A stretch of 64,000 nucleotides of DNA from Branchiostoma lanceolatum (Eukaryota; Chordata; Leptocardii; Amphioxiformes; Branchiostomatidae): contig NC_089740.1 in assembly GCF_035083965.1 (NCBI RefSeq), positions 15,719,552 through 15,783,551 of the forward strand. Reading direction: 5' to 3'. Position 1 is the stretch's first letter. Every line of letters begins with the position of its first letter. A model generated the notes under the pieces. The model was not told the origin of the DNA and made no database searches. It was given only the letters and a program-made list of their open reading frames with translations. The position numbers and the translations under genes are program-made. Below, one piece after another: positions 10,801-63,300 of the stretch.

Positions 10801-13800
10801 TTCACTGATTTATTGATCTATTGATCTATTGATTTATCGATTTGTCGGTTTATTGATTTATTGATTTATTGATATGTTGCTTATTTGCTTGATTGTTTGA
10901 TACAGAAACGGTGGACAAAATCATCGAGGAGAAGAGAGCGGAACACGCTGAGTACGTGAAAGGGGAAGTTGACGGGGTGGAACAGAACAAGACCCGCGGG
11001 CAGAAGACGCGCCGGTTCCCGCCCGTCCTATTCTACGTCCTGCTGGCGCTGGGCCTGACGTGTCTGGGCGCGACCGTCGCCTGCGCTTTCCTCTTCGACC
11101 GGGTGTGGGTCGTGTTCCTTGTCGGCACGGTGGGTCCAGATAAGGCCTGTTGGTTTAGTTGTACACGTACTTATTTACTTATTATTTTAGACTTATGTTT
11201 TGTACTGATTGTATTGTGTTATCCATGGCCCCACTGCAAAGCAGTGTATAGTGCACTGAGTTGGGCCACCCTGGCTAAATAAAACAGAAACAAACAAACA
11301 AACAAACAAACAAACAAATTAACAAGACTAAACTTTTTGTCCAACACTGTAAGAGAAATCGGGACTTACCCCAAATTTTCGGTTGACTCCATCAACCCTG
11401 TTCACGGAATGAACCCGGCTACTGCAACGTGACGTCAGCGACTTACTTAGTATACTTATTTTGGTCGAGCTCCCGCTCGAACCAAACTTGAAAGCTAAGA
11501 TTCTCCACTCGACCCTATGTTCCATCAGGGACTGGATTTCCTTTACTTCAGTAAGGTTGGTGTCGGCTCTTAGCTTGTCGATGAAGGTGCCTTTTGGTCT
11601 TCCACGGCTTCTCTTCCCTTTTGTAGGCTCCCATAACACTAGTCTGGAGGCTATGATTGTTTAGTTGTAGACACTTGTGTTATTTAGTATCTTTGCTTCG
11701 GTGGGTCCCGGGTTCAAAACCACTGATAAACGGCCCTTAGGAAAGGCATTTTACACGTCTTTCCTCAATCTACCCAAGTATGAATGGGTACCTGACTTCG
11801 CTTGAGGTATTGAGGTCAACTGCTGGCACCGAATGGCAGCCACCCAGATCCTTTCAACAGTTCAACAAAGAGCACGAGTGGAGCAAATATGTATCTGTTG
11901 TGTATTATGCCATTGCAAACCCTGCAGCAATTCAGCACTAGATATAGAAAGGCTGCCATTGCACAGGTAATTTCTGACCAATAAAGCATGATCATTTCTG
12001 TAATACAGAAAAAATAACTGAATGTAACGAAATGTTTCATGTGGTGTCGTTCGTGATTGTAAACCCTGCACCAGTTCAGCACTAGTATAGAAAGGCTGCC
12101 ATTGCACAGGTAATTTCTGACCAGTAAAGCATTATCATTCTTATGTGTAACGAAATGTTTCAGGTGGTGGCGTTCATTCTCCTGGTGGCGACGGTGGTGC
12201 ACGGGTTCCGGCGGCGGATCCTGGGCTGCTGCACCGAGAGAGTCGCCCTGCTACAGAAGTCCAACCCCATGCACTGGATGGTCGGCATCTACCTGGAATG
12301 GGTGAAACCGCCGAACATGGCGGAAAAGCCGCAGGACAACAGTCTACAGTATGAGGTAAGGGTCACCCTACTCTTCAACACATCTCTAACTACTCTTCAA
12401 TCTATCTCTACCACTTAAGATAGACCCCCCCTCCCCACTGGCATGGCGGAAAAGCCGCAGGACAACAGCCTACAGTACGAGGTAAGGGTCACTCTACACT
12501 TCAACACATCTCTAACCACTCTTCAATCTATCTCTACCACTTAAGGTAGACCCCCCTCCCCACTGGCATGGCGGAAAAGCCGCAGGACAACAGCCTACAG
12601 TATGAGGTAAGGGTCACTCTGCTCTTCCACATATCCCTAACCACTCTTCAATCTATCCGTAGCGCTTAAGAAAGACCCCCCCTCCCCAAACCACAGGACA
12701 GCAGCCTACAGTACGAGGTAAGGACAAACCCTACACTTCTCCATGGTACAGCGAAAACAGGGGGTGATAGCCGTCCAACTCTTCAACCTATAGCGATCAC
12801 GTACGATAGACCCCCTCCTAAATATAATGGACAAACCACAGCACGGTACAGCTTACAGTATGAGGTAAGGACCGCCCCTACCCTTCACAACGACACCGCG
12901 AAAACAGGGGTTGGTAGCCGTATTGATGCGAGAACCGTCTAACCCTTCGACATGCCTCTGCTTAGATAGACCCCCCTCCCAACATGGCGGAGCTGTAGAC
13001 TATTCCAAGGCACATTAATATTGTTGTAGTTTAAACATTTGCATGCCAGTATATGTTTCGGTTGTTTCAGAAGAAAGTAGATGCAGCCTTACCGATGGAT
13101 ATTTCGAATTCAGTCTTCTTAATTGAAGAAGAATGACCATTTTCCTTTCACCTATGGCCCACTCTTGGAGTCACATGTCCGCAATCGTGGCGTTTTTTTT
13201 CAAACCTAAATTAATTTCCTGTCTCTCCAGGTGATCTGGGTACACTTCAACGCCTGGGAGTTCTCCGGCTGCAAGGTATTGTGGGCCGGCATCGTCACCA
13301 CGCTGTGTGACGCCATCGAGGAAAAGGTCGGCAGCAGGCCGGCAAGGTTCTTCCGGGTCATCCAGGTGAGTTGACGTCACTTCCGCTGTATGTCGAACGT
13401 GTGGGTTAGTTGTATTGTGGTAGGAAAGTGGCTGTTCAGATGAACTTGGTCCAAAATAGTCCAACTAACCTTTATCTAAACAGGACGCTGGGCGATACTA
13501 GCTTCAAATTCTAGTCATGTTGGACCATCTTTCAGAAAGCTCTGATTATAATGACAGTTTGGAAATCAGCCCAGTTGAAAGGGACCAGTCAAGATCGATA
13601 TTAAATAGATAAATACTATTAGACAAAAGTCTACTATGCCTTGTATGCTCCATGTCATCACGATGTTCGTCTTTCATTTTCCCTGAAGTGAGTTGTAACA
13701 CCCCCCCCCCCCCCCCTTACAGGACCAGTTCAATGGAGGTATTCAAGATTGATAAATAGATGCAATTAGATATCATAAATAAAACAGTCTTCTATGCGTT

Positions 13801-16800: not shown

Positions 16801-19800
16801 GGGGTGACACTTATCATGACACCTCCCCCAGGAAGATAACTATACATCAGATATCTTCTAACATCATGTACTATCCTAATTTAGCATCTAACAAATCTAA
16901 ACTAACACATGTCATGTTGCTGCTACATTCTTTCCCTGTCCCTCATTACACCATACTCCTGTTGTCTGCCACGTTTTCCCGCTTCTCTCATGAGCTCCTG
17001 CTGCCTCTGCAGCCAACGCAGACGACCCCGCCGGAAGACAGGGTCTTCACTCATGAGCTTCTGTATCCTCTCCTCCACGATACTTCTGCTCTTCACGTCT
17101 GCCGTCGGAGGACACTTCACGTCTCGATACCCTTGCTTCTGCCTCGCTGGGATCTGATACCGCGGAACTACCGACTTTGTCTTCCCAGCACGATTTTTGT
17201 CCTCCCCCAACTCATTCTTACTCTCCTGAGTTGCTACCGGACTTGCCCTACTCGTGACGCAGGCCTCCCCGTAGTCGTTGCCTAGCAACACCGGGTAGGG
17301 TGTGTTCATCACCCCTACTTCCACAACCTTCGCATCCCCTCCCACTTCCAACTCGACTCTTGCCGTGGGAATGGTATCCACCGTCCCATTGGCCAACCTG
17401 ACCCTGATTTTGTCTTCTTGGTAGGCATTCCGCGGCACCAACTTCTGGTTGACGTACGTCTTTGAACTCCCGGTGTCCCGGTACACCGTCACCTTCCGGC
17501 CATTTACCGCTCCACTGCTGCTGTACCTACTCTCCTCCCCCAAGATTCCGTCCGCGTCCCAGGGTTTGGCTCTCCCCTGTGCGAACATACTCTGCGCGAG
17601 CATACTCTTCCTAGGGGATTCTCTCTTCAAACTTGGGCAATCTGCTTTCAGATGACCTGTTTCGTAACAGTGGTAACAGGTCCCGCGGAAACCTCCCCCG
17701 AGCTCCCTGGAGCTACCGTTACCGCTCTTCCTGGTGGACACCCCCCCTCCTGAACTTGGTGAGTTGCGTGGGCGGGCACCTTCGGCCAAATTTCTATCGT
17801 GCGCGATCAGGTACTGCTCACTTAATGTCCCGATCTCCTCCAGCGACTTGGGCTTCCTCTCGCGGAGCCACACCGCCAAATCCACAGGGCACGAGTCCAG
17901 GAACTGTTCTTGGATAATCTTATTACATATCCCCTCGTACGTCTTCGGCGTCCCGGCCAGGTCCAGCCACCTGTCCAGGTAACTACCCAACCGGGTAATG
18001 TACTGGTCGGGCGCTTCTCCCTCCTGCGGGAGCTCGGTTCTGAACTTCTTCCGGAACCCGTCTTCAGTTAACTCGTACCTCTTAAGCACATCCTCCTTTA
18101 CCTTCTCATAGTCCTGTGCATCTGTCTCTGACATGCGGTTGAGTACATCCAGGGCCTTCCCTGTTAGTAGAGCGCTAAGCGTGGACGCCCATAGGTGTTC
18201 CTCCCAGTTGTTGGCCCGAGCAAAGCGCTCAAACCTTAGGAGGTACCCATCGATCTCCTCGCCCTCGACATAGCAAGGCAGCCTTGGCGCCTTCGCCTTA
18301 ACTTCACCCGTACCGCCTTTCTTTCCCGCAACCTCCGCTTGTTTTAGCTTAAGAACTTCCATCTCAAGCTCGTGCTTCCTCTGAGCATCGCGCTCTCTCG
18401 CCCGTTCGTCCCTCTCAAGGGCTTGTTGTTTCTCAACAAACTCTAGAATGTCTGGCCCTTCTAGCCCCATCTCCTTCGCTTGTGCTATCAACACATCCAT
18501 GACCACACAGGTCAGAGACTCCCTGCCTGCAGCAATGTACCGTCCCCTAGTTAAGCCCTTACAAAATTCAAAACAGATGTGCAACAAGCAAGTCTGTCCT
18601 CTCTGGGGAAGGGACCCTCTGACTGCAGCAATGTACTACCCCCTACAAATACAGTATAGAGTTCCCCAAATTCAGCCCAGATGTGATATGCTGACAAAAC
18701 AACAGGCTTGTTATCTCTATCTTTCACAACCCCCCACAACAGAAAGTCAACAGGAACAAACAACAGAAGGTCTATCCTGAATAAAAATAAGAAAAACACC
18801 AACTGTTCGATTCAGCTAAAGTTATGTCGGAAGTCCTTTCTCTCTCTTAGTCCTAAAGTGACAAAAGTCGAGTGTTCTACAATTTCACCGACGGGAAATT
18901 CCCCAGTTCCCACTCCAACTTATGTCCTTTTCTTGGCTGCTTCCTCGTCAGCACGGGTCCTCTTGCCTGGGTCCTGGAACAGAATCCTCCTGGAATCTGC
19001 TCTTGGCCCCGAACCCCTGATCGACGCAGCCTTCTTCCCCGCCACGTGTATACGCCTCACTGCAGACACGCACGAACACAGCCAGTGTCCGTTTCTGCAG
19101 GCTATCCCACGGTCCTGGCAGAACACCGCTTCTCCAAACGGCACCCCCGATGGATATGCTAACTTCTCTGCCACGTGTATACGCCTCTCCGCAGACACCC
19201 ACGAACACAGCCACAGTGTCCGTTTCTGCAGGCTATCCCACGGTCCTGGCAGAACACCGCTTCTCCAAACGGCACCCCCGATGGATATGCTAACTTCTCT
19301 GCCACGTGTATACGCCTCTCCGCAGACACCCACGAACACAGCCACAGTGTCCGTTTCTGCAGGCTATCCCACGGTCCTGGCAGAACACCGCTTCTCCAAA
19401 CGGCACCCCCGATGGATATGCTAACTTCTCTGCCACGTGTATACGCCTCTCCGCAGACACCCACGAACACAGCCACAGTGTCCGTTTCTGCAGGCTATCC
19501 CACGGTCCTGGCAGAACACCGCTTCTCCAAACGGCACCCCCGATGGATATGCTAACTTCTCTGCCACGTGTATACGCCTCTCCGCAGACACCCACGAACA
19601 CAGCCACAGTGTCCGTTTCTGCAGGCTATCCCACGGTCCTGGCAGAACACCGCTTCTCCAAACGGCACCCCCGATGGATATGCTAACTTCTCTGCCACGT
19701 GTATACGCCTCTCCGCAGACACCCACGAACACAGCCACAGTGTCCGTTTCTGCAGGCTATCCCACGGTCCTGGCAGAACACCGCTTCTCCAAACGGCAAA

Positions 19801-28400: not shown

Positions 28401-31400
28401 GGACCCCTACTCTTGTCGATATTAAAGTGTGGTGGGTTCTTTTACGTGCTCGAGGTGTGGCTCTCCTCAAACACGGGACTTCCGGCTTTACGTCCCACCC
28501 GAGAGGACGTCCCTAGCCGAAGCCAAGTATTCATTTTCACCTTAGTCAGAAAATAGGCATTAAGTGCCTTTTCCAAAGGCATTGGGGCCTGCTTAGGGAA
28601 GCACACTTTAGATTCTTTTTTTTTTTTTATAGATCAGTCTTTTTATTGTTTATAACCAACATAAATTTTACAAAAAGAAAATCATGGCAAACATACAGAA
28701 AATGAAGGCACATGTGTGACAACAAAACTGAAACTTAAAATCCAAGAACAAAAGAGTATGATCATAAAATGCCGAGAGAACCCCAATCATTGTACAGGAA
28801 AATAACGGAAATTAACTAGATAGAACAATATGTAGTTTCCCCCACTTCCCAATGTGTTTCTGAATCTTATTTTTGCGTTGGGCAATAATGAATTCTAATT
28901 TTTGAAAGTAGGAAACAAATGAAATAAAACCAGATAAATCCACATGTATTTTACGATATCTAAATATATAACATTTACCTAATAGAATAATAAGATTTGA
29001 CAGAACAGGGCATCGGTTGCTTAGATCACCAAGGACAGTATTGAAAGCATTCATATGTAACTTTATCTTTGTCAAGTTAAAAAACCAACCCTCCACTTCA
29101 GCCCAGAAATTAGCTACAATTCTACAATTCCAAAATAAATGTATGGTTGTTTCCTCCTCTTCATGACACAGACTACATAGAGGGGAGTCTACCAGGCCCC
29201 AGGTGTATAGTGTTTTATTTACTGTTAAGAATTTAAAAAGCGTCTTAAACTGAAACATCCTTGTATAGGTATCAATTGTGAGCTTATAAGGTAAGCAGTA
29301 AACTTGTCTCCATGGGATAGGAGTGTTAAAAAGTTCCTCCCAAGACAGTTGTATTCTATACGACGGTTCACAAACCTTGTCATCGTTGATAAAAAAAAGG
29401 TACAAATGTTTATTGATGAGTTTTTTTCTAAGCCAAGTTGTGTCTCTACAAATGGGCATGCAAACTTGTAAGATATGAGATGCTTTCTTTAGTAATGCTT
29501 TCCAGTGAGCTGGTATAGCAGAAATTAACTGATTGTATTGTAATTTTGTACACATATCCCCAAATTTTAGAATGAAATTTTCATAAGAAAGAAATCTATT
29601 TTCTAAATCCAATATATCATTAAGAAATCGAACACCCCCAGTATCAAAAGCTGTGGAAAAGAATGGTTTTTGACCAATACATATATTCGAGTTCAAACAG
29701 AGAAGCTGTTGTTTGACTTTAGATTCTTAGCGAACGATACCAACCACAGACCATTTTGCTGGTGATTCGAACCCAGAACCCCTAGATTCGGAGGCTACGG
29801 CCCTAACCACAGCCCACCTCGCCCCCTCAGGCGGAGATCCAACCCGATGCACTGGATCCTCGGGATCTACCTGGATCTGATCGACCCACCATGCATCGCG
29901 CCAGCCAACGTGCCGCAGCCGGAGCGCTACGAGGTAGGGTTTTTATCTCCAAGCAGATGTAAGGATCCTGGTTTGGTTTCTAGATTTCTCGTTCGATGGT
30001 CTGGGTGCACTGAGGAGTTCTTCGGTTGTAGGGCATTGTGGGCTTGAACCTTTGACCAACTCCCGGAGTCACGTGTCCATAATCATGGCGGTTACTTGCA
30101 TTGAGTTTTCACACTAACATCGCCGCTTCTCGTAAACTGTCGTCGGCATTTGAAACGGTCGACGCCATTTGAAACCGTCGTCGCCCTTTGAAACGGTCGA
30201 CGCATACAAACGTATATAAAGCAACAGTTCAATTAGAAATGTTCACCAGTGCGTTATACATGCTTTAAAGGAGTTATCTATAAAGAATAAAGGGTACCAC
30301 CTAATCCTAATCAACAACGGCAAGAACTATCACGGTGAGGATAGAGCGTACCAATACACTTCAAGTGCTAGAGCGTGCTTATGCACATAAGACGGTGACT
30401 GCCGTTTCAAAAGGCGACGACCATTCCAAAAAAGAACGACGGCCATTTCAAACGGCGACGACCATTTCATAGGGCGACAACCGTTTCATAAGGCGACGAC
30501 CATTTCATAAGGCGACGCCCGTTTCTAAAAGCTACGACCGTTTCAAAAGGCGACGACCGTTTCATCAGGCGACGACCGTTTCAAAAGGCGACGACCATTT
30601 CATAAGGCGACGACCGTTTCTAAAAGCGACGACCGTTTCAAAAAGCGACGACCATTTCATAAGGCGTCGACCATTTCATAAGGCGACGACCGTTTCAAAA
30701 AGCGACGACCGTTTCAAAAAGCGACGACCATTTCATAAGGCGTCGACCATTTCATAAGGCGACGACCGTTTCAAAAAGCGACGACCGTTTCATAAGGCGA
30801 CGACCGTTTCAAAAAGCGACGACCGTTTCAAAAAGCGACGACCATTTCATAAGGCGACGACCGTTTCAAAAGGCGACGACCGTTTCAAAAAGCGACGACC
30901 GTTTCAAAAAGCGACGACCGTTTCAAAAAGCGACGACCATTTCATAAGGCGACGACCGTTTCATAAGGCGACGACCATTTCAAAAAGCGACGACCGTTTC
31001 AAAAAGCGACGACCGTTTCAAAAAGCGACGACCATTTCATAAGGCGACGACCGTTTCATAAGGCGACGACCGTTTCAAAAAGCGACGACCGTTTCAAAAA
31101 GCGACGACCGTTTCCAAAAGCGACGACCATTTCATAAGGCGACGAACATTTCATAAGGCGCCGACCGTTTCAAAAAGCGACGACCGTTTTTAAAGGTGAC
31201 GACCATTTACGAGACTGAAATCAGCAGCGACCTTTCCCCCCTCTCCTCCAGGTGATCTGGGTGGACTTTAACGCGTGGGAGTTCTCGGGCTGCAAGGTAT
31301 TGTGGGCCGGGATCGTGACGCGGCTGTGCGACACCGTGGAGGCTGTGATAGGGGCGCGGCCTACGCGGTTCTACAGGTGCATCATGGTAGGTTTCCTTCC

Positions 31401-39045: not shown

Positions 39046-42000
39046 ATGGCGAGCTTCATGAGCCCGCTGTTCGACAAGGTCAGCCTGCTGAAGAATGACC
39101 CGGACGACCCGGAGGCGGCGCCATGTCTGCCCTGCAGGGACTGCTCCGACCAAGAGGAGGAGGAGGAGGAGGAGGAAGGTATAGAAAGCACTGCTTTTCT
39201 AATGTTTTTGGTTTTTGTTTTAATGGTCGAGAGTTTGGATGGGATCTAATCCCAGGTGTGCCCAGTGACATGTCCGAACTTGCGCCCCGACGTTGTGCCC
39301 TTGGGAAAGGCACTTAACACGACTTTCCTCACTTCACTCAGGTGTAAATGAGTACCTAGCTCATCTAGGGTTAGGGACGTCCCTCGGATAGGACGTTAAA
39401 TGGAGGTCCCGTGTTTGGGGAGAGCAACACCCCGCGCACGTTAAAGAACCCACCACACCTTTCGAAAAAGAGTAGGGGCACGCCCCGGTGTGCGATGGTC
39501 GAAATCTTACAGTCCGGTCTGGGATGACATCTTGAAAAGGCGATAGTTCACCTGTTATGTCAATCCTTCCACAAAATGTGGTAAATCAAAATAAATAAAT
39601 GGGGACGTTAAGTCGGTATTCGAGTACCTTTTACTGGCTATGCCTAGTGAGTTACATGTGTAAGAACTGTGTTGACTCGCTACGCTCACATGTAGTAAAG
39701 TTGATATCGTTGTGTATTCGTGTCATGGTAGTCAGCCAGCCTGGTGTGCAACATGTTGTCCCCTCACATCATAGCAGACATCTAAGCTTCTTACACGCTT
39801 ACGCAATCTCCACTTGTAGAATCTGCTAGATCTAAACTCTACCATATGTTTCCTAGTTCCGGCCTCGTGTGCGACCCCAGCTGGGCAGGTGGAGAGAGAC
39901 CCGCTGGGCCACATGGTGTCCGCGCACACCGTCGCCGACATCTAAGCTTCTTACACGCTTACGCAATCTCCACTTGTAGAATCTGCCAGATCTAAACTCT
40001 ACTATATGACATATGTTTATCCTAGTTCCCGCCTCGTGTGCGACCCCAGCTGGACAGGTGGAGAGAGACCCGCTTGGTCACATGGTGTCCACGCACACCA
40101 TTGGCGACTTCTAAAGCTTCTTACACGCTTACGCCATCTCTACCTCTAGAATCTGCTAGATCGTAAACTTTGTTATATGACATGTTTCCTAGTTCCGGCC
40201 TCGTGTGCGACCCCAGCTGGGCAGGTAGAGAGGGACCCGCTGGGCCACATGGTGTCCGCGCACACCGTCGGCGACTTCTAAAGCTTCTTACACGCTTACG
40301 CAATCTCCACTTGTAGAATCTGCCAGATCTAAACTCTACCATATGTTTATCCTAGTCCCGGCCTCGTGTGCGACCCCAGCTGGGCAGGTGGAGAGGGACC
40401 CGCTGGGCCACATGGTGTCCGCGCACACCATCGCCGACATCTTAGCTTCTTACACGCTTACGCAATCTCTACTTGTAGAATCTGCTAGATCTAAACTCTA
40501 CCATATGTTTATCCTAGTTCCCGCCTCCTGTGCGACCCCAGCTGGGCAGGTAGAGAGGGACCCACTGGGTCACATGGTGTCCGCGCACACCATCGCCGAC
40601 ATCTAAGCTTCTTACACGCTTACGCAATCTCCACTTGTAGAATCTGCCAGATCTAAACTCTACTATATGTTTATCCTAGTTCCCGCCTCGTGTGCGACCC
40701 CAGCTGGGCAGGTAGAGAGAGACCCGCTGGGTCACATGGTGTCCGCGCACACCGTAGCTGACATCTAAGCTTCTTACACGCTTACGCAATCTCCACTTGT
40801 AGAATCTGCCAGATCTAAACTCTACTATATGTTTATCCTAGTTCCCGCCTCCTGTGCGACCCCAGCTGGGCAGGTAGAGAGGGACCCGCTGGGCCACATG
40901 GTGTCCGCGCACATACCGTCGCCGACATCTAAGCTTCTTACACGCTTACGCAATCTCCACTTGTAACTTTGCTATATGACATATGTTTTACCCTAGTTCC
41001 GGCCTCCTGTGCGACCCCAGCTGGGCAGGTGGAGAGAGACCCGCTAGGCCACATGGTGTCCGCGCACACCATCGGCGACTTCTAAAGCTTCTTACACGCT
41101 TACGCAATCTCCACTTGTAACTTTGCTATATGACATATGTTTTACCCTAGTTCCCGCCTCGTGTGCGACCCCAGCTGGGCAGGTTGAGAGAGACCCGCTG
41201 GGCCACATGGTGTCCGCGCACACCATCGCCGACATCTAAGCTTCTTACGCGCTTACGCAATCTCCACTTGTAGAATCTGCTAGATCTCAAACTCTTCTAT
41301 ATGACATATGTTTTATCCTAGTTCCGGCCTCCTGTGCGACCCCAGCTGGGCAGGTGGAAAGGGACCCGCTGGGCCACATGGTGTCCGCGCACACCATCGG
41401 CAACTTCTAAAGCTTCTTACACGCTTACGCAATCTCCACTTGTAGAATCTGCTAGATCTAAACTCTACCATATGTTTGTCCTAGTTCCGGCCTCCTGTGC
41501 GACCCCAGCTGGGCAGGTGGAGAGGGACCCGCTGGGACACATGGTGTCCGCGCACACCGTCGCCGACATCTTAGCTTCTTACGCGCTTACGCAAACTCTA
41601 CTATGTGTTTCATCCTAGTTCCGGCCTCCTGTGCGACCCCAGCTGGGCAGGTAGAGAGAGATCCGCTGGGCCACATGGTGTCCGCGCACACCGTAGCCGA
41701 CATCTAAGCTTCTTACACGCTTACGCAATCTCTACCTCTAGAATCTGCTAGATAGTAAACTTTGCTATATGATATATGTTTTATCTTAGTTCCGGCCTCG
41801 TGTGCGACCCCAGCTTGGCAGGTAGAGAGGGACCCGCTGGGCCACATGGTGTCCGCGCACACCATCGCCGACATCTAAGCTTCTTACGCGCTTACGCAAT
41901 CTCTACCTCTAGAATCTGCTAGATCGTAAACTTTGCTATATGACATATGTTTCCTAGTTCCCGCCTCCTGTGCGACCCCAGCTGGGCAGGTGGAGAGGGA

Positions 42001-45000
42001 CCCGCTGGGCCACATGGTGTCCGCGCACACCGTCGGCGACTTCTAAAGCTTCTTACACGCTGACGGAATCTCTACCTCTAGAATCTGCTAGATCTAAACT
42101 CTTCTATATGACATGTTTCATCCTAGTTCCCGCCTCGTGTGCGACCCCAGCTGGGCAGGTGGAGAGGGACCCGCTGGGCCACATGGTGTCCGCGCACACC
42201 GTCGCCGACATCATCATGGACAGGAACACGGAGATGCCACTCACCGTGGGGGTGTTCGGCGGGTTCGGCTCAGGCAAGTCCGCCTTCCACGCAGCAGTCA
42301 AAAGTACGTCTCTTCTCTACACTTATCTTACATTCTTACATTACTTTATACATAGTACTGAGCAAAACCCGATGTGGGTATCGCCTCCAACTGAGGTGCA
42401 CGCCTAAGCGCGGTAGGTGATGGAGGTGGTGCTCAAAAAAGCCTTCCACGCTGCAGTCAAAAGTACGTGTTGTTTTTACTTGGTTGATGAGTAATCGGTC
42501 TATTGTATGTAATGCAGGCTTTATGCATCCTACTTCTTCATCATCATCATCATCTATCGACCATCGGCCGGGACTATCCTACTTCTTAACCATAACCCAC
42601 GAAGCCGTAGAAGTACGTCTCTTCTCCACACTTGTTTGAAATTCCTCCGAGTCTTATAGTATTGCGGGCTCTCTATAGCCACATTCTTAACCCCAACCCA
42701 TGCAGCCGTCAAATGTACTAGTACGTCTTTTCTTTGCACTTGGTTGAATAATCCTCTACCGTATCTACTACAGGCTTTCTTTAGCATAATTCCTAACTCT
42801 AACCCACGCCACCACCATCCTTGTTTTAGGCATAGAATGGAGCAAAGTGGCGTAACTAACTCAGAACCAAGAGGTCCCGGGTTCGATACCTGCAATGCCT
42901 CGACGTTGTGTCCTTAGGAATGCATTTACACGACTTTCCTAACTTGTTGGTGGAGTTATGCCCACCGCGGCTCTTCGACTAATCCATCAAAAAGCGTGGT
43001 AAAAAAAACAACACAGACTTAGTGTCGCAATTTGCCAACATCCTTACATTTGACACCAAGAGCCGTAATTGTTTTAAAGCGGAACAGACCCGGATCTCAA
43101 CAACATAAAATACAGACTTTCATGCTCTTTTTGCAGAGGAAGTTCTGAAAAGGACCTCGCACGTCCAGCACTACAAGAAGAAGATTGAAGAACAAGGAGT
43201 TTTCAAGAAGAAGAAGAAGAAAAAGGAAGCGAAGAACCTCCTCGAGCGCATAGACTTCTACGTTATCCTGTTGTGTTATACGGGCCTGGTATGTTTGATT
43301 GATTGTTTGATTGATTGATTGATTGATTGCCTGTATGTCTGTCTGTTTGTCTGCTTGTCTGCTTGTCTGCTTGTCTGTTTGTCTGTTTGTCTGTTTGTCT
43401 GTTTGTTTGTTTTGTTCAATAGCGACAAAGGTTAGTCTGCCGGCCAAGCCACTTCATGGGCCAGGGGTGAAAACACGTCTGGATGTGTCACAGACTCGCA
43501 CAAAATCCAAACCATTGCAAACTTTGAATAATAGATACTAGTATAAAATGATATCAATATGTATTAGCCCCTGGCGCTATTCTGTACCGACCCCCACCAC
43601 TCCCAGCCATGGGCATCTGTATCTGTATCTACATAGCCGGTATAACCGCCATTCGGCGTAACACACCAGCTTCGCAGGCACGCGGCGCGGCAGCAGCTGG
43701 TTATATTTTTAGTAAATATGAAGTTTATTGCAAGTTCATGCCCGTGGGCTAATTGCAAATACATGATAAAAACATAGGAAAAACATACATGCGTCAGTAA
43801 GCTGTGTCTGACTTTGCTGTAACAATAGGTTACTGGTACTATATACAATTGTTGGCTATATCTAAATTAGCTGGGTTTGACTTCTTTTTTGGAAGCAGTG
43901 GAAGACGAAAAGTCCCACTTTTTCTAGTATTTGTGGGTTCAAGATTTCAAGAGAAAGGTAGCTTTTTGTTCATCCGTGAATGTGCAAAAGTAGGGATATT
44001 TCGTGATAACTTGTTTAAATAATTCGGTTCTTTCGTCACTGTTAAATATACACTTGGAAATAAAATGTGTTTCGTCTTCCACCGCCTTGGACGTACAGTA
44101 TTTACAAATTCTTTGGCACACTGGTAAACTCTTATATTACACTGAACGACCTGTCACGTCTAACCTTCGCATATCTAACTGCATGCATTGTTTAAAGCTG
44201 TCTAGTGAGGATGCTTCTACGGTTCTTTGTGGCAACGATGTTATTATGAATTGTTAGATTTATGTTATTTTTGTTAATTTAGATGGGGGAAGACCTTGTA
44301 TAAGCCACTATGGCTTTTTTTCTTCCCCCAGCACATTTTTTTTTGTTCTATTATGTAAAATTGATTTTAATATGTGCGAATATACCAAACCAAACCAAAC
44401 CAAATGAGTTTCACTCTACGATCGTTCTAGGAAAATAGGAATTTTTGAACACATCAATGAACATGGTCGCGACAGGGCTCTTCTTTACCTTTCCCAGGTC
44501 GCGGGGACCATCGCAAGCGGGCTGAAATTCCCGTCTGCCTTCTACTACCTCCTGGCCGGCACCATCACAGCCGTCTTCCCCATCGGGATATACTTCCGGG
44601 AGTACCTGGGCCGGGCGGCGAGGCTGGTGGCTACCAGGCTACCCGGGCTGTTCAACAAGTCCAGTCCGATGTACCACATCCTGCGCACTTACCTGGACGT
44701 GCCCGTCCAGCCGCTGGACCAGGACATCGTAAAGGAGGATCCGGAGAGACGAACAGACGTGAGAATTTCCTTTTAGATTCTGTTAGATGGAAAATGGGAG
44801 GGTTTATAAGCAGTAATCTCACTCCTGTGCGCCCATAAGAGTCGGAAATTACTTCCGGACGTTTCTAGTGATTCTTCTTCAGCATTATGAGAGAGAAATC
44901 AAGAAATATACAAAAATAATGCTTTTATTCTTTTTTGCGTTTCGTTTTATTCATTGTCTTTTATACGATGACCATACCTTTCGTTCCCGCAAATTATGAA

Positions 45001-52110: not shown

Positions 52111-55100
52111 CTTGTGTGACGTCATACAACCAGCTGACAAAGGCACAACCAAGCATTGATGGGGGGAACCAAACTGTGGTAGAGACAACCTGACAGCCAA
52201 AGCGAAATACTATTTGATGCGTAAAGTGACCCACTGTAACGTTGGTGTGGTGGGTGTCTGTACTGCGAACGGTAATCACTAGGTGGCGCTAATATGCTGT
52301 CCGTCCACTAGTTTCATCAAAACACATTCAGAACAAACGACAAGGTTTAAGTTTGATGGTTCTATTAGGATTTAACCTTTGCTTCGTTCCTTTCCGATGT
52401 GACCGTATTGTTGACTTGTATGACGGTTTAGGCGCAGAGCCTAAACCGTGCTGCTTCAATTGTAGAAGAAGGGTCAGAGGTTGCTAAGTCCTGGGTGCTA
52501 TTGTGGAGGGGTGTGGGATAGTAGAATACCCGAAAACGCTAAAATTGTTTCTACAGGTTAAAAGTCATAGACTATTTAAAGGGAACGATGGTCGTTCACG
52601 AGCATTAATTGCACGTATGACATGACATGGCTAAGCCAATCACATCGCTAGGTTCCCTTGACGTCACCACATCTTGCGAGCAGTTGCGAGACTTCCTAAT
52701 TTTGGTAATGGCGGCCATATCAGAAGCCAACAACAAAGTTTGCGTCTTTTCCATCGCAAACTTCATGATTTATGGAAGGTTTTAGATAGTTAAGAATCAA
52801 ACAGAGGATGTACATATATACATAAGTGCTAGTTATTTTGACAAGTCCAAAAACCGGTTCTCGGAGGGTTTTTTTTTACTCGGACCGAAACGTTTTACAA
52901 GTCCAGAACCGGTTCGGCCGAACCGGTACGCACCACTACGTATGACAGCAAAAAAGTAGAAAACTAATTACAACAAGATAACTTAGAAAGAGCAGCCCGC
53001 CATTTTAAGAAGAAGTGTATCACGTGCCGTGCCGCTGTAATAGATTCCTACTCAGGAAGGTAATAAAACACTTCTCATGCCTGACGAAAATGTTTATTTA
53101 TTCATTAGGATGCAACCTAACGTCACACGTGCAAACACAGAGAGAAATACAGGCGGGTGTAAACATTACAAAAGAGACATTGATTGGCGATAAAACAGTT
53201 ACTCAAGCAACTGGATAGATTTTTGGTGCTTGAGTAGCTGTCTTATTGCTACTTCAGGGGTTAGCGATTTTGCCTCTGGAACTAGAAGCCGCGAGTTCGA
53301 TCCCGGCTGTGTCACTCACCCGACATGCACGCTACCGGAAAGGGCCGCAGTTCTTAGGACGGGACATTAAGCCGTGGTCAAATGTTCGTTGTGCTTGTCG
53401 GCAAGCTAGGGTCATTTCCCCGGTATGATGAACCTGTAAATACTGTACATGGTGTCTGTCTTCTCTCTCACGAGCAGTGGAAGAATAGCTCTTCAGTGAG
53501 CTAAACTGGATCGAGATCACTTTCCTTTCCTTGCGTATCTTGCTAGCTTGATGTCTAGCCTCCATCGGCGAGAGATTGATTGCTTCACTACCGATGTACA
53601 CGCCTGATACACCTGGCTTACCAAACCTAGCTGTGGCTCCTTTCACTCCTCTGATCGCTTCCGGGTACAGTCTGGCACCCGTTGATAGAAAAATGATTCC
53701 CATTTAAACATTTGCCTAAAGTATAGGCGAGTGTTCTGGTTGGCTCCGAGACACATTTCATGGTTCACGTAATAGCATATGCATGGTAAAAGGGTTCGAA
53801 CAGGCATTCGGAACTCCAAACCCTTTGCTTTATTTTATTCACATATATCAGGCAAAAAGCGCAATCGCTTATATAAGGTCTTCTACTCAAAAACATAAAT
53901 ATAAAACAAGAGTAAAACACAATTTCAATTTACACATATAAACACGAAATGGATAAAAGAAAGTGAATGTAAACATGACAAGTTGGTCATCTATCAACCC
54001 CTTACACTGCTTCTGAGAAATATCTGACTCCTGCAATCATGCAGGAAGTTAGGGACAAACGGTCGCCGCGAAAACCGCAAACATAATACCACCGCGAACC
54101 TAAACGGTCGCCGCGAAAACCGCAAACATAAGACCACCGCGAACATAAGACCACCGCGAACATAAAACCACCGCGAACATAAAACCACCGCGAACATAAG
54201 ACTATCAGGACCAAACGTTTCAGTGGGGACGTGGGCCAGATTATATTCTGCTTGCAGCGATTGTTGTAGGTGGGGACGTTGAGTTAGAAAAGATGGATTC
54301 CAGGCTATCAATAATGCATCCACTCCGTACATGTAGTCCACATGTTTGCTTACACTTGTGAACATCAATGGAAACCGTACGTGACAACTGTAGCACGCGA
54401 GTTTCCATGGCACGCCTTTGCAGTTTGTGGAGTGTTTGTGGACGTGAGATGAGTCGGTGGGACGGGGTTGTACTTCTGGTGTGACGTCATGTGTGGGTAG
54501 GGGTGACGTCATGTGTAGAGAGGGTGTGTGACGTCAAGTGTGACGTCAATTATAAGCGCACATCTTGTGTGACGTCATGTGTGGGCAGCATTGGACCAAA
54601 CGATATAGTGCGACAAAAAACTTGAGACTTTATTCAATATTCAATATTCACAACCACTATTAGTAACATAGATCGAAGTTAGACTTGATGTGGTTACATA
54701 AAATATCTCAAATATGCTGAAAATCTAAAAACCATGGTATAAAACACGTCTTGTTGGCTTATTCCTAGGGCAAATCGGTCCCCATATATAAGCACTTCCT
54801 AGTACAAGTATTTCCTGTCCAGTAACTAGAAGAGTCGGGGGATGCCCATTGCATACCGCCCTGCTCTGCCCTGTTCTAGTACAGGAACGTTCACAAGTCA
54901 AAGCTTCTCAGGGGAGGGTTTGCAGTAGTGCATGTCCCCTATCAGAGCCTCGTCTGCAGTACCTGCGCCGACCGCCTGGTGAAGGTTTGGCAAGACGGCC
55001 GTCAAAATGCCAAATCCCCGTTTCCCTGTTTGAGGATCACGACAACAAATATCTCAGTTCTAAATCATATTCTTCCTCCCTTTTCCCTGCAGACTTTAGA

Positions 55101-56400
55101 TAAAGGAAACACAGAAAGTCATCATAAATAAAACAGGTTTTTCAGGCGACATACGCGGTAAATTCTATAGTTTTACGTCCAATTTTCAGTCTCGTTTTCC
55201 GGTTTGCGGATCACGACATCAAGTATCCCAGCTGTAAATCTCAGTTTCCTCATTTCGCCCGGCAGACCTGTTTGCGCGCCTCTCCCGCCGCCGTGTAAAA
55301 CCGCCGCCCGACCTTTCCGTCGCCCCAGCTGAAGTTTTACGGCCCCGTCCCGTGTCCGGACGACGTCACCGCGAGCTGGAATTTCTGTGAATTAATATCG
55401 GGACAAAGAGACGGGCCGGATAAAAACTATTCATTGTTTTGGGGATTATTAACAGCCAAACGAGGTATCGTTTACAGTTGCTAAACATTTGTGTCGTTGT
55501 TGATGCTTTTTAATCTATGATATTGAAAGTCAGTGTGATCTGGAATTTCTGTGAGTCAACAGCAGGACTGGCTGACGGACTAGACAAAAACTATTTACCG
55601 TGTACGGATTTTTGTTAATGTTTAACTTCAGTTCTACACTAGGAAAAGAAATACTCACGAAAATATCGTCCAGTGTTATGGTCCTCATCCAAACTGAGGA
55701 CCGAATTGCTCAAACATATGGCATTAGGAAGTAAGAGGTCAAAGGTGGTTGGAAGTCGATGTCAGCCCCCGTCCCGGCCGGGGACGGTTCCTTTGTAGTG
55801 AGTTTTAAAGGAAAGACTGAAAGAGATAACGTATAGAGAGGATAGGATGAGAATATTTGCCTGTGTGCGTGTTTTTATTCGTCTGTTTGATTTGATTCAT
55901 AATGATGATGATGTTTAATTAATCACAGAACAATACAGACATCGTTTCAGAAAATAAATTGTCAAGAACAAGAAAGAGCCATCCCTTGAAGACCAAGAAA
56001 CCAGGACCCAGGGTCCTCATCCTATAAAAACTATCATCTGTGAGGGAGTTAGTAGCTAAATTGACTCCAACCCTCATCCCAACATCATAAATGGGTTATC
56101 CTCTGTAGTGGATCTCTACCCGCCTGGCTCCAAGAACAATAGAATGGGATCAGAGCAGACGACGGGAAATCATTTGCATATCAACTGACGTCTCAAGTTT
56201 TGAAAAATCCTGTATCTTTCTCACTAGTTTTTGAAGAAAACATTGTCAGACAAAGAAAAATAACCCAGATACATCATACATGTGGATAACTGTTTTCGTT
56301 CTGCCCACCCCTCTTGACTTGCCCGTAGTACAGTCCAAACAAAGCCATCGTGTCGCGATTATTAACTCATAAAGCTGGAGTGTCGGACCTGCTCCGGGCG
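52111..56400. other. Intergenic C-D
   Basis: No convincing gene. Contains a possible AATAAA for gene C (53062-53067), a second type of tRNA-like SINE head (GAGTTCGATCCCGGC near 53296) followed by its body, and a CCACCGCGAACATAA 18-bp repeat (54060-54200). Tandemly related 55010-55270 blocks share GGATCACGACA, and two copies of CTGGAATTTCTGTGA lie at 55377 and 55540. Confidence 0.45.
54055..54200 (+). repeat. 18-bp CCACCGCGAACATAA repeat
   Basis: About eight units with CCGCGAACATAAAACCA cores; related words occur at 37700-37860. Confidence 0.85.
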
Positions 56401-56404
56401 GCAG

Positions 56405-56458
56405 TATAAACATCAGTGGGCGGACGGACACTTCTGCTGACACACGGGCTGGTATAAA
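56405..56458 (+). promoter_or_regulatory. TATA boxes of gene D
   Basis: TATAAA at 56405-56410 and again at 56453-56458 (GGTATAAAGC), 262 bp before the start codon. The second would place the transcription start near 56485. A TGACGTC CRE-like site lies near 56187. Two TATA boxes contrast with the TATA-less region before gene B and suit a cell-type-specific secretory gene. Confidence 0.55.
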
Positions 56459-56719
56459 GCCTCTAGTCCGAAACCAGAGCAAGAGTCAGGGCTAAACGCT
56501 CGTCTAGTGGTTCCGTCGCTAATATTTCTCGCGGGTTTTAGTCTTGCAATATTTTACGTTTTCACATCCACGTCAAATTCTTCGTCTCCTTTTTTTAAAC
56601 CCGAGCAGGAGTCAGGAGTGCCGTCGTTAAAACTTGTATTCGTCTTGCGGTCCTCAAACCTGCCGAAACGTCGACGGCCTCACGCCCGAGTTCACGAACG
56701 ATCGTGCCGAAGCACCGCT

Positions 56720-59700
56720 ATGGGCTGGTCCGCAGTGGTCGTGCTAGTCGCCGTGGCGTTGTGCTGTGAGGTAAGGCCTGATTTCCTGATTTCAGAATGT
56801 CCCTGTTTACAATAGAAGGGAAACTGTTTTATTTTACTTGTTTGGGTCCTCTTCATTCATTTGAAAACTGAATTAGGCCAAATGATTCGGTGTCCTTTAG
56901 TACAAGCTATGGATGGTTGAGTTTGCTGGATGCCATTGCTATTCAAGACTCAAAAGTTCTTTCGATAGCACAGAAATACCTGTATCATTCTCATCAGCTT
57001 CATAGTTTGAAAATGAAAAACTTTACTTCTGAACTAAACGTCAGTGGTTTTATGTTAAATGTTAGTCCCCGTGGTGCAAGCGGTAACGCAACCCCACTGC
57101 TTTGCCATCTGGATCAAATTTCGTGGATCCTAGGAAACCTTTGCACATTAAAGAACCCAACACACCTATCAAGAAGAGAAGGGGTGACCCGGTGTGCTTG
57201 GCCCAAAACGCGAGCGGTGGCGAACTGAATTGCACTACCACTAGCTACTTGAAAAAGCATCGTGCTTCACCTCAATTGAGCCTGACTGCTTTACTTACCT
57301 AGCAGTGGGCAGCTGGCAGGGTCGCAGGGCAGCCTGAGGAATTAAAAAAACACTATTGTAGGATTGAAATTATTAGAAAGTTCCACGGTACGTGTTCTAA
57401 AGAAACATCATACATTTCCTGAGTATTCAACAAAGGAGATGGGTGATTACATTATTGTACCTGTTTAATGTTAGTCCCGGGTTAGTTATTGACAGCTGGT
57501 ATTCTCGCAGGGTATGTATTGTATGGAATGTAATAATTAGAAAGTTCTACAACACGTGCCTTTAAGGACGAAAGCACACAATCATTGGGTGTTCAACAAA
57601 GAAGAGGGGTGTAAAACTGCATTTTTCATTCTATTCAAAAGGGTGCGCCCAGTCCTGTCTCTGACGCCGAGAGTCTCACGAGAACTGGCGAGATCGACTT
57701 GGACGACCCCATTTCAGCTGTAGGGTGGACAGGTGTCGTGGATGAGCAACCGGTGGACCTGGCTCCCCTACAAAATAATGGTGAGAGCCAAGAAGCGCAT
57801 GCGCACTATTGTAAATTGAAAAGAAGTTCTAAAAATGAAAAAAAAAGCTAATGATACCTACAGCTTCTATAAAATAGTTCTGTTCATCACTTGTGATGAA
57901 TATAAAGAGAGTCTACATCATCATCCTAACAGCTATTAACATATCTTTATCAACGTTTTCAGCGAACAAGGGAAAAGTACTGCCGGGCTACCCACCCTTC
58001 CCTGAACAATTCAGTGTTCCAAAGAGGCTGTACAACCCTCTCGACCCAATCCGGAACGGAAAGAGGCAACAAAACCCACTCGACCCCATCCGGAACGGAA
58101 AGAGGCAACAAAACCCCCTCGACCCAATCCGGAACGGAAAGAGGCAACAAAACCCACTCGACCCAATCCGGAACGGAAAGAGGCAACAAAACCCCCTCGA
58201 CCCAATCCGGAACGGAAAGAGGCAAGAAAACCCACTCGACCCAATCCGGAACGGAAAGAGGCAACAAAACCCCCTCGACCCAATCCGGAACGGAAAGAGG
58301 CAACAAAACCCACTCGACCCAATCCGGAACGGAAAGAGGCAACAAAACCCACTCGACCCAATCCGGAACGGAAAGAGGCAACAAAACCCCCTCGACCCAA
58401 TCCGGAACGGAAAGAGGCAAGAAAACCCACTCGACCCAATCCGGAACGGAAAGAGGCAACAAAACCCCCTCGACCCCATCCGGAACGGAAAGAGGCAAGA
58501 AAACCCCCTCGACCCAATCCGGAACGGAAAGAGGCAAGAAAACCCCCTCGACCCAATCCGGAACGGAAAGAGGCAACAAAACCCACTCGACCCAATCCGG
58601 AACGAAAAGAGGCAACAAAACCCACTCGACCCAATCCGGAACGGAAAGAGGCAACAAAACCCCCTCGACCCAATCCGGAACGGAAAGAGGCAAGAAAACC
58701 CACTCGACCCAATCCGGAACGGAAAGAGGCAACAAAACCCCCTCGACCCCATCCGGAACGGAAAGAGGCAAGAAAACCCCCTCGACCCAATCCGGAACGG
58801 AAAGAGGCAACAAAACCCACTCGATCCAATCCGGAACGGAAAGAGGCAGGGCCACCCACTCGACCCAATCCGGAACGGAAAGAGGCAAGAAAACCCCCTC
58901 GACCCAATCCGGAACGGAAAGAGGCAACAAAACCCACTCGATCCAATCCGGAACGGAAAGAGGCAGGGCCACCCACTCGACCCAATCCGGAACGGAAAGA
59001 GGCAACAAAACCCCCTCGACCCAATCCGGAACGGAAAGAGGCAACAAAACCCACTCGACCCAATCCGGAACGGAAAGAGGCAACAAAACCCCCTCGACCC
59101 AATCCGGAACGGAAAGAGGCAAGAAAACCCACTCGACCCAATCCGGAACGGAAAGAGGCAACAAAACCCCCTCGACCCAATCCGGAACGGAAAGAGGCAA
59201 CAAAACCCACTCGACCCAATCCGGAACGGAAAGAGGCAACAAAACCCACTCGACCCAATCCGGAACGGAAAGAGGCAACAAAACCCCCTCGACCCAATCC
59301 GGAACGGAAAGAGGCAAGAAAACCCACTCGACCCAATCCGGAACGGAAAGAGGCAACAAAACCCCCTCGACCCCATCCGGAACGGAAAGAGGCAAGAAAA
59401 CCCCCTCGACCCAATCCGGAACGGAAAGAGGCAACAAAACCCCCTCGACCCAATCCGGAACGGAAAGAGGCAACAAAACCCACTCGACCCAATCCGGAAC
59501 GGAAAGAGGCAACAAAACCCACTCGACCCAATCCGGAACGGAAAGAGGCAACAAAACCCCCTCGACCCAATCCGGAACGGAAAGAGGCAACAAAACCCCC
59601 TCGACCCAATCCGGAACGGAAAGAGGCAAGAAAACCCACTCGACCCAATCCGGAACGGAAAGAGGCAACAAAACCCACTCGACCCCATCCGGAACGGAAA

Positions 59701-60760
59701 GAGGCAAGAAAACCCCCTCGACCCAATCCGGAACGGAAAGAGGCAACAAAACCCACTCGATCCAATCCGGAACGGAAAGAGGCAGGGCCACCCACTCGAC
59801 CCAATCCGGAACGGAAAGAGGCAAGAAAACCCCCTCGACCCAATCCGGAACGGAAAGAGGCAACAAAACCCACTCGACCCAATCCGGAACGGAAAGAGGC
59901 AACAAAACCCCCTCGACCCAATCCGGAACGGAAAGAGGCAACAAAACCCACTCGACCCAATCCGGAACGGAAAGAGGCAACAAAACCCCCTCGACCCAAT
60001 CCGGAACGGAAAGAGGCAAGAAAACCCACTCGACCCAATCCGGAACGGAAAGAGGCAACAAAACCCCCTCGACCCCATCCGGAACGGAAAGAGGCAAGAA
60101 AACCCCCTCGACCCAATCCGGAACGGAAAGAGGCAACAAAACCCACTCGATCCAATCCGGAACGGAAAGAGGCAGGGCCACCCACTCGACCCAATCCGGA
60201 ACGGAAAGAGGCAAGAAAACCCCCTCGACCCAATCCGGAACGGAAAGAGGCAACAAAACCCTCTCGACCCAATCCGGAACGGAAAGAGGCAGGGCCACCC
60301 ACTCGACCCAATCCGGAACGGAAAGAGGCAACAAAACCCTCTCGACCCAATCCGGAACAGAAAGAGGCAACAAAACCCACTCGACCCAATCCGGAACGGA
60401 AAGAGGCAAGAAAACCCACTCGACCCCATCCGGAACGGAAAGAGGCAAGAAAACCCTCTCGACCCAATCCGGAACGGAAAGAGGCAAGAAAACCCACTCG
60501 ACCCCATCCGGAACGGAAAGAGGCAAGAAAACCCACTCAACCCCATCCGGAACGGAAAGAGGCAACAAAACCCACTCGATCCAATCCGGAACGGAAAGAG
60601 GCTTTATAACCCTCTCGACCCAATCCGGAACGGAAAGAGGCAACAAAACCCCCTCGACCCAATCCGGAACGGAAAGAGGCTTTATAACCCTCTCGATCCA
60701 ATCGTGAACGGAAAGAGGCAACAAAACTCCCTCGACCCAATCCGGAATGGCAAAAAGTAG
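56720..60760 (+). CDS. Gene D: multicopy amidated-peptide precursor (3 exons, 995 aa)
   Basis: Exons 56720-56770, 57642-57780 and 57963-60760, all GT-AG with matching phases (0, then 1). Exon 1 encodes a signal peptide (MGWSAVVVLVAVALCCE). Exon 2 encodes an acidic spacer (DAESLTRTGEIDLDDPIS). Exon 3 gives a linker ending in VPKR and then 70 contiguous 13-residue units (residues 86-995). Typical unit: QQNPLDPIRNGKR. By eye, prefixes are QQ in 42, QE in 20, QGH in 5 and LY in 3. G-K-R at unit ends is the classic site for prohormone convertase cleavage, carboxypeptidase trimming and alpha-amidation; N-terminal Gln invites pyroglutamate. Predicted product: pGlu-QNPLDPIRN-amide. Deviants: unit 15 ends NEKR, unit 60 NRKR, unit 65 NPLNPIRN, unit 69 DPIVN, unit 70 NSLDPIRNGKK. 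The first in-frame ATG after a TAG at 56504 is 56720. I recognise no known family. Confidence 0.85.
57080..57215 (+). mobile_element. SINE tail relic in gene D intron 1
   Basis: TTAAAGAACCCAACACACC and a GGTGACCCGGTGTGC-like end match the tail at 39440-39495. The head is degraded. Confidence 0.5.
57896..57962 (+). other. Alternative unspliced start for gene D
   Basis: Intron 2 sequence directly before exon 3 is itself open and in frame. From the ATG at 57896 it reads MNIKRVYIIILTAINISLST, a plausible signal peptide, running straight into the repeat. A transcript starting inside intron 2 would give a precursor without the acidic spacer. The spliced model is preferred because exons 1 and 2 are open, phased and flanked by good splice sites. 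Confidence 0.35.
58028..60757 (+). repeat. 39-bp coding tandem array (70 units)
   Basis: The period is exactly 39 bp without indels across 2.73 kb, with unit n starting at 58028 + 39(n-1). Core words are CCCAATCCGGAACGGAAAG and AGGCAACAAAACCC. The unit is free of stops in most frames on both strands, which explains the long overlapping shadow frames. Confidence 0.97.
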
Positions 60761-60964
60761 AAAAAAGCTCACTCGACGTATTCCGGAAATGCTTAAGGCA
60801 GCAAATATATATTTCAGAAGATTAAAGCAAGAAATGATATGTTCGTTAAGATTTGCTTATAAACATCATTGATGCATGTTAGAGTTTGCGAACGATGATC
60901 TTTTTTAGCAGACTTGCAGACCTACCTTGTAATTCTGTTCCTCATTCCATGGTTCATGCTATGA

Positions 60965-60970
60965 AATAAA
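60965..60970 (+). terminator. Polyadenylation signal of gene D
   Basis: AATAAA 205 bp after the TAG stop. Confidence 0.6.
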
Positions 60971-63300
60971 AAGCAAAGAGAAGAGAAAGTGAGTCTCAAC
61001 CATCATTTGTGCACAAAACTTCAATTTTCTAAGATTGAATCACTTTGTGGTAAATGTTGTAATATAGATATTTTTCTTTTCGCTGTAAATCTTGATGTTG
61101 CGCAAAGCACGGAGACGAATCTCTGCGGTCACTGCCAATAGCAATGGATCTGAAGGTGAACTTGAACAGTAAACGTTCTGCCGGACCTTGACCTTAAACC
61201 TGGGGTACACTGCCCTATGACCTAGTAAGAAGGGCTGATCACAAAGTTAGGGCTGCCCATTAATATTGGAAAGCATGTTAAAATACACTGAAACAAGGGG
61301 TTTATAAAATTACTAACGTAAATCTTAATCTTCATTAAAAAGTCTTGTCGACTGAAAAGTCACTAGGGTCCACTTCATAACCATGCAAAGAAAAGAAAGG
61401 GTTGTTCCGCTTCCAGTAGTAAACAAACCCTACCTTTAACCCCATATTTCTGATATTGTATCCATCCGCATGACCCAACAACTCGCATATGTCCTTACAC
61501 CAGTATAACTGGAGAACTATAACAAATTTTCACCAACATGGGAAAGCTTAGACCCATCCTATTCCTTCTCACCCAAAGAGTCTCAAATTGGACCGAATTT
61601 TGAAGAAAAAGAAGGATTTTCAAGGATTTTAGGTGGTTCTATAATCGTTTCCATTTTGGGCCCTCCACTGCGCAACGCAACTTTGACGTCTGCGCAGAAG
61701 CAACGACCCTGCAGGTTGTTTTCGGCGAATGGCAACAGCGAACGCCCTACAGGGCATTGACCTTAGTGAACAGAAGTAAATCGCAGGAGGTCTTATCCTT
61801 TAATTTGTAGAATGGTAACTTCTTTTCTTCGGATCGACTCGTATTATGAGCCCCCAACCCGCGCATAGATTACTGGATATGAAATTAGGTTTTGTCAGGA
61901 ACAAACTTCACACACTCATTAGGGTGCATTTCTCTACCTTTTTACTAGATGGCGCTATTGCACTGTTCAATAACGTCATCGTGATAACATTGTACAGCAT
62001 TAAAGGCATCCAGAGCATTTGATGAGGTTTGAAGCTTGAATAAAAAAACTCAAATTTCTAGTCATTCCTACACATAGTAAGTTCCAATAACACTATACCA
62101 TTAGTAGGCATTACATATCGACAGTAAAGGAGCAAAGATACGATGTCGTTGTGTGGTGAGAACTGATAGAAAATGTAAGACCTAGTAGACTGATCCTGAC
62201 TGTCCATCACAATTAACGGTTCCACCAATGACAGAATGACTGCATGTCCGTCAAATATTTGCATTTTTATGTTTTAATTTTGCATTTCTACGTTTTGGCG
62301 GAGGTGGTTGTATCGGTCAATTTACACTAGGCACGTGAAACTAAAAGATCACCATGTAGCTTATTTTTGTGCCGCTTTTGAGCACCTTTGATAAGAAATC
62401 CGCACACAAATGTGGTAGACAGTGGCATTAAATGTTAATTTCATAGATATTGCAGCAACTGCAATATCTCCAGTTTTTAAGCCTCAGAAAATTCTCTGGA
62501 TGCCTTTAAGGACTATTTTGGTAAGATACGTCACGAAGACAGGTGGAAATATGGCCTTCTTCACGAGCATAGTTTATGCACAGACGTCTAGAGCTGCAGC
62601 AAATATCGATGTGTGAGCCTCAACTGCCTCAGAAAAAGCAGAGCACACATGCAGTGGAAACTAGATTGCGTGCCGCTTGCTCTAGTGAAAAGACATTTGC
62701 GTGATAATAGGCAACAGCTTTGGTTTATGATGAAGATTTTAAGTCGTGAATGAAGCTATAAGACATCCGTTGAGCAATTAAGTGGATTCTACCGTATATA
62801 CTATATCAAAGTACCATAATATAATAGATCAGATTGTGCTTGAAGGGGAACAGTGAACGCCCTACCGGGCGTTGCCCTTTAATATAGCCGGGCCTTCCTT
62901 ATACCAACTTCAATGACTAAAGACGGGGGGCGACACAAGTTATCTGGAACGCTACTACGGTCACGTGTCTCTGACGTCACGTTCCAGCAGTAGACGGGTC
63001 CTTTCCGTGAACAAGGTTGACGGAGTCAGCCGAACATTTGGGTAAGTCCCAATTCCTTCTTGTGTTGGACGTAAAGTTTAATCCTTAATTCATACTCACC
63101 GACTTAAGTTCAGCCCTGCCGAGCCCCTATCGGGCTGAAACAGAATTGCACCGGATCGGGTGAACCAACCTCGGAGCATGCATGCACAGCAGTTATTACA
63201 ACCAACCGGCTTTGGAAGGTGTGTAATCCGATACCCTCTCGGTCAAGGGTGACAACAACAGCGCTAGCTCCCACACGGTAACCCGGCCTGGGTGACTCAG
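60971..63300. other. Downstream intergenic region
   Basis: No gene recognised. Two short palindromes of the form CGAACGCCCTACAGGGC and GAACGCCCTACCGGGCGTT lie at 61739 and 62853, and a GACGGGGGGCG motif at 62922. Confidence 0.45.

Follow-up and report, generated by a model that had tools for sequence, protein, structure and literature searches.

A candidate gene for a 70-unit precursor of amidated decapeptides in the amphioxus Branchiostoma lanceolatum

We describe a candidate peptide gene in a 64,000-nucleotide stretch of the genome of the amphioxus Branchiostoma lanceolatum (NCBI RefSeq assembly GCF_035083965.1, contig NC_089740.1, positions 15,719,552 to 15,783,551 of the forward strand), referred to here as the window and numbered from its first letter. 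Three predicted exons on the plus strand, joined in frame between 56720 and 60760, give a reading of 995 amino acids (aa) that, judged from its sequence, very probably belongs to a gene that encodes a secreted precursor with many peptide copies, a neuropeptide or peptide hormone. The repeat array in this precursor begins at residue 86 and comprises 70 units of 13 residues, free of insertions and deletions, with KR preceding every unit. The kind of gene is already known; the peptide and its copy number look new. An earlier sequence-only reading of the same DNA had set the start at the ATG at 56720 and the end at the TAG at 60760, and both, together with its coordinates and unit count, are correct. 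The gene model and its immediate flanks, with lengths in base pairs (bp), are as follows.

56720..56770 (51 bp), plus strand: predicted exon 1, with the ATG at 56720 and the leader MGWSAVVVLVAVALCCE; donor gtaagg, phase 0
57642..57780 (139 bp), plus strand: predicted exon 2, acidic spacer GAPSPVSDAESLTRTGEIDLDDPISAVGWTGVVDEQPVDLAPLQNN; donor gtgaga, phase 1
57963..60760, plus strand: predicted exon 3, with the end of the spacer (..VLPGYPPFPEQFSVPKR), the 70-unit array and the stop codon TAG at 60758-60760
58028..60757, plus strand: unit array, 70 x 39 bp or 70 x 13 aa; consensus QQNPLDPIRNGKR
56460..56719, plus strand: putative 5' untranslated region, free of ATG; start context ACCGCTATGGG
56405..56458, plus strand: two TATA-like boxes starting at 56405 and 56453 (pattern search for TATA[AT]A), a possible core promoter
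57896..57964, plus strand: in-frame rival start with the leader-like stretch MNIKRVYIIILTAINISLSTFSA, which would open an intronless 954-aa precursor or form a second promoter's first exon
60761..60805, plus strand: degenerate 71st unit found by local alignment, untranslated, directly 3' of the stop
60965..60970, plus strand: hexamer resembling a polyadenylation signal, a possible function; further AATAAA/ATTAAA hexamers at 60821 and 61334

As protein, QQNPLDPIRNGKR occurs 39 times, QENPLDPIRNGKR 19 times, QGHPLDPIRNGKR five times and LYNPLDPIRNGKR twice, and the core is changed in five singleton units (15, 60, 65, 69 and 70); at the DNA level the array holds 18 distinct units. The sequence-only reading spoke of 70 exact units, which is right for length, each having 13 residues, and wrong for identity, with 39 of the 70 identical as protein. 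Its statement that the units almost always end in GKR was borne out (67 of 70), as was the N-terminal Q, present in an equal number. One further unit ends in GKK, and two (NEKR and NRKR) are missing the amide-donor glycine, so that short repeats with dibasic sites and this glycine, as found in precursors of this general kind, make up nearly the whole array. The stretch PLDPIRNGKR is intact in 65 of the 70 units. Residues 1-3 account for most of the amino-acid differences, the remainder of the unit being unchanged in 65 of 70; P-I stands at positions 7-8 in all 70 units and R at position 9 in 69. A six-frame motif scan of the window detected no second array of the same motif and two unrelated short matches, at 11505 (plus strand) and 39249 (minus strand); apart from the array itself, it showed no group of at least four glycine-dibasic sites.

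We propose a route from precursor to peptide that draws on this motif and on the established biology of peptide hormones. The predicted leader would direct the precursor into the secretory pathway; prohormone convertases would cut after each KR, a carboxypeptidase would remove these two basic residues, and the glycine thus exposed would be converted to an amide by the peptidyl-glycine amidating enzyme. The N-terminal Q would be closed to pyroglutamate by glutaminyl cyclase. From the 70 units up to 68 amidated decapeptides are predicted, of which 65 would carry an unaltered PLDPIRN-NH2 core, and the main products would be pQQNPLDPIRN-NH2 and pQENPLDPIRN-NH2. Their calculated [M+H]+ values are 1176.612 and 1177.596; those of two further predicted forms, pQGHPLDPIRN-NH2 and LYNPLDPIRN-NH2, are 1128.591 and 1213.669. 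Through expansion of the array, each translated molecule would in this way supply a large amount of peptide. The most likely target of the predicted peptides is a G-protein-coupled receptor, and the concentration of variation in residues 1-3 would be expected if that receptor were bound by the amidated C-terminus. The peptide predicted here is short and easily synthesised.

Many copies and repeats with proline would also suit a bulk product, secreted but without a signalling role, whether a defence, adhesive or structural peptide or a repeat protein. We consider such a product very unlikely. With a glycine plus dibasic site in 68 units and a starting Q in 67 of the 70, the array has the layout of amidated peptides, and the predicted mature peptide is short and free of cysteine, with a net charge of 0 or -1 in its two commonest forms. 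Typical antimicrobial peptides are unlike such short, cysteine-free peptides of this charge.

Evidence that the array is translated has to come from something other than its openness. All six frames over the array region hold open reading frames (ORFs) of 841-965 aa, and one minus-strand frame is, like the precursor frame, stop-free across the whole array; because of this, ORF length and openness are not evidence, and a long ORF was rejected as proof of coding. The same two observations would fit a non-coding minisatellite that is open by accident, an explanation we regard as extremely unlikely. Relative to the consensus unit, codon differences in the precursor frame are synonymous in 57 cases and non-synonymous in 42, compared with 2-12 synonymous and 86-90 non-synonymous in each of the other five frames. 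When distinct codon changes are counted once, the corresponding figures are 8 and 13 in the precursor frame and 2-4 and 13-17 in the other five. A synonymous excess in one frame only argues against an accidental frame, as does the fact that leader and spacer join the array in frame. Ten other arrays were hand-picked for comparison from the 66 listed tandem-repeat rows of the window; two of them have a frame that stays open across about 95% or more of the array, and neither reaches 520 bp. Confined as it is to the precursor frame, and combined with a strong in-frame leader, the synonymous excess is better evidence of coding than length.

Several points weigh against reading the locus as a precursor gene or limit the evidence for it. 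Base changes in the ten core codons (P-L-D-P-I-R-N-G-K-R) comprise 53 synonymous and 7 non-synonymous cases, and a position-shuffled control gives 22.7 synonymous changes expected for the 53 observed (P=0.013), although these cell counts are not independent in a duplicating array. Counting distinct core variants once each leaves 7 of 14 synonymous against 4.8 expected, which is not significant (P=0.16). The secretory leader that belongs to this general kind of precursor is present, at a gene start that is itself predicted, on a home-made score of hydropathy and cleavage site rather than SignalP; its hydropathy of 3.55, a value attained by 3 of 2001 ATGs on both strands of the window outside 56001-61000, speaks for coding. 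The splice sites of the three-exon model were chosen by eye from the sequence, and two in-frame starts compete. The window contains many tandem repeats, so the array as such is unremarkable, a point that also favours the minisatellite explanation. Viral and prokaryotic contigs yielded no homologue, with 5 viral and 155 prokaryotic stretches carrying the pattern and none confirmed by tblastn; absence from these non-animal collections is expected.

The competing ATG, at 57896, lies within predicted intron 2, is in frame with the array and opens a leader-like stretch. Intronless translation from this position, as the only form or from an alternative first exon, would be favoured by the rarity of such an arrangement: of the acceptor-frame pairs in the rest of the window, 1422 in all, 5 have an in-frame upstream leader as good. 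We nonetheless judge it unlikely. Its leader is the weaker of the two (hydropathy 2.7 versus 3.55), the lower value being reached by 40 of the 2001 ATGs elsewhere, and the stretch coincides, by eye, with an apparent branch point and a pyrimidine tract ending in CAG. Points in favour of the three-exon model are that its leader region is free of ATG, that TATA-like boxes are present, that its start lies in a better context and that exon 2 is open and rich in GC. When the bases of 56460-56719, a region whose limits were set by eye, were shuffled, a fraction of 0.026 of the shuffles likewise lacked an ATG. Of the three frames of exon 2 one is open, the one required by the join, and the guanine-plus-cytosine (GC) fraction of this exon is 0.58, as against 0.41 in intron 1 and 0.32 in intron 2; both properties also speak for coding. 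The acidic spacer (net charge -5), and the position of both cysteines of the precursor in the leader, with none after it, favour the precursor reading as such. On the grounds of its leader, start region and exon 2 we prefer the three-exon model as the better of the two in-frame models. This is also the exon model of the sequence-only reading, which missed the rival start; its leader and spacer are supported by the in-frame join of the three exons and by the leader score. The secreted peptides would not differ between the two starts, nor if two promoters supplied both.

The array itself suggests how so many units could have arisen. Units 3-13 are identical to units 26-36 (an 11-unit block) and units 16-23 to units 50-57 (an 8-unit block), compared with a longest shared block of 5 units by chance in 500 shuffles. 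Units 61-70 carry a mean of 3.0 base changes from the consensus, versus 1.4 in units 2-60. The degenerate 71st unit past the stop gave an alignment score of 19 versus a maximum of 13 in 300 shuffles; like the start at 57896, it does not appear in the sequence-only reading. Block pattern, divergent end and dead unit past the stop together match what internal homogenisation of an array would produce. We propose growth by unequal crossing-over or block duplication, to which the block pattern points, with decay at the end of the array, and the 11-unit and 8-unit duplications look like a record of growth by unequal crossing-over. According to an excerpt of one paper (PMC5627052), it is unclear by what route copies increase, and unequal crossing-over is put forward. 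Exact repeats within the array reach 450 bp, and because of this the copy number given here hinges on assembly quality, a short-read miscount being possible.

For comparison with published systems we relied on excerpts of the papers cited, and the statements below extend as far as those excerpts. The highest reported count found is up to 50 GPRGamide copies in a precursor of the coral Stylophora pistillata (PMC7523074). The 70 units exceed this figure, in keeping with the sequence-only remark that the copy number is unusually high, and are not thereby established as a record. The phrases '70 copies', '60 copies' and 'more than 50 copies' in combination with neuropeptide terms returned nothing from the open-licence main texts of PubMed Central (PMC), and PLDPIRN is absent from the same texts. 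Shorter forms of the core did match PMC texts, which by title concern piRNA and C. elegans and were judged to be chance matches. Pfam returned 0 families at E values up to 1, both for the first 163 aa of the precursor and for exon 3 (931 aa), and the sequences of the PDB gave 0 matches at E values up to 10. The peptide may already stand in the 2013 survey of Mirabeau and Joly, which is cited for B. floridae (PMC5818035), or in a genome annotation. The sequence-only claim that the peptide matches no family agrees with the negative results from Pfam, the PDB and open PMC texts but needs to be softened, as RN-amide ends neuromedin U and PLD opens pedal peptide.

In layout, the closest likenesses are to other many-copy precursors. 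Cnidarian preprohormones, such as those of GPRGamide and Antho-RFamide, likewise hold tens of near-identical units with glycine and basic processing sites, and Antho-RFamide shares the N-terminal Q. They differ in their unrelated peptide sequence and in their fewer copies, and the cnidarian units described in PMC9545775 (excerpt) are preceded by acidic or other residues, where KR stands here. TRH-type precursors of echinoderms and vertebrates also combine many copies (excerpted counts run from 6 for human to 21 for a brittle star) with an N-terminal Q and a C-terminal G before dibasic sites. Their repeats are mostly peptides of 3-4 residues, whereas those described here have 10 residues and end in RN-amide; the multiple pQ-X-X(-X)-amide tri- or tetrapeptides of the TRH type were not found, the predicted mature peptide being 10 residues long. 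Peptides of the NG peptide/neuropeptide S type (SFRNGV-amide in B. floridae) have the letters R-N-G in common with our units, but here the G is an amide donor. The C-terminal cysteine-rich neurophysin domain that marks invertebrate deuterostome precursors of this type was not found either, since the predicted precursor has two cysteines in the leader, none after it, and no Pfam match.

A resemblance at the C-terminus raises the question of receptor type. Neuromedin U shares the C-terminal arginine and amidated asparagine, which contribute substantially to its binding at human receptors (PMC9019041, excerpt), and 65 of the 70 units would end in an intact PIRN-amide core. That the peptides are ligands of the neuromedin U/PRX-amide type, with C-terminal R and amidated N filling the receptor pocket as in neuromedin U, is nevertheless distinctly unlikely. 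The motif of that family is -PRX-amide, with the vertebrate end FLFRPRN-amide, compared with DPIRN-amide here; the P stands one place too early, there is no aromatic residue near the peptide end, and PRN occurs in 0 of 70 units. The peptide also lacks FLF, and its many-copy precursor is a further difference from neuromedin U.

In our judgement it is very improbable that these peptides branched off from the pedal peptide/orcokinin type by becoming shorter and amidated. Peptides of that type have a non-amidated end and about 13-15 residues. Pedal peptide starts PLDSV (PMC5860471, excerpt) and thus shares PLD with the start of the core here, PLDPI; the many copies are a second likeness, with 17 copies in an Aplysia precursor and 21 pedal peptide-like copies in a sea urchin precursor. 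However, a five-residue similarity is no test, the C-terminal SGFx motif of the type (PMC5860471, excerpt) is not found in the unit sequences, and the peptides here are predicted to be amidated and only 10 residues long.

Returning to the preferred reading of a secreted, amidated peptide precursor, we advance tentatively, and as something short of probable, a more specific proposal: that these peptides form an undescribed family of RN-amide decapeptide hormones, encoded by the highest-copy precursor reported, in which rapid change of copy number through block duplication tunes peptide dose, and that they are possibly ligands of a neuromedin U-type receptor.

Upstream of the precursor, pieces of KAP P-loop NTPase genes lie in a row on the plus strand (9455-47165) among tandem repeats. 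A Pfam scan of 17 upstream or flanking ORFs gave the following features.

Starts at 9455, 15919, 26618, 32749 and 46713, plus strand: KAP P-loop NTPase ORFs above the Pfam cut-off; a further one, starting at 41958, is below it
16923-18635, minus strand: retroelement-like ORF of 570 aa, with Pfam SCAN, aspartyl protease and zinc-knuckle matches
28812-29726, minus strand: ORF of 304 aa with a zf-RVT match, probably an end piece of a retrotransposon reverse transcriptase

No transfer RNA was found in the window by ARAGORN and no Rfam match at gathering score, and no functional link is apparent between the KAP, retroelement and tandem-repeat surroundings and the precursor. A 2.5-kb tandem array of units of about 162 bp at 39751-42212 seemingly repeats the start of a KAP NTPase exon, and the ORF at 41958-42404, which lies at this array, is the one with the weak match to the KAP NTPase family. 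Elsewhere, a 19-bp repeat (CCGTTTCAAAAGGCGACGA) is present in 42 copies at 30402-31208 with a higher-order period of 95 bp, and the consensus units of the repeats at 30134-30203 and 54057-54148 again contain the string AAACGGTCG.

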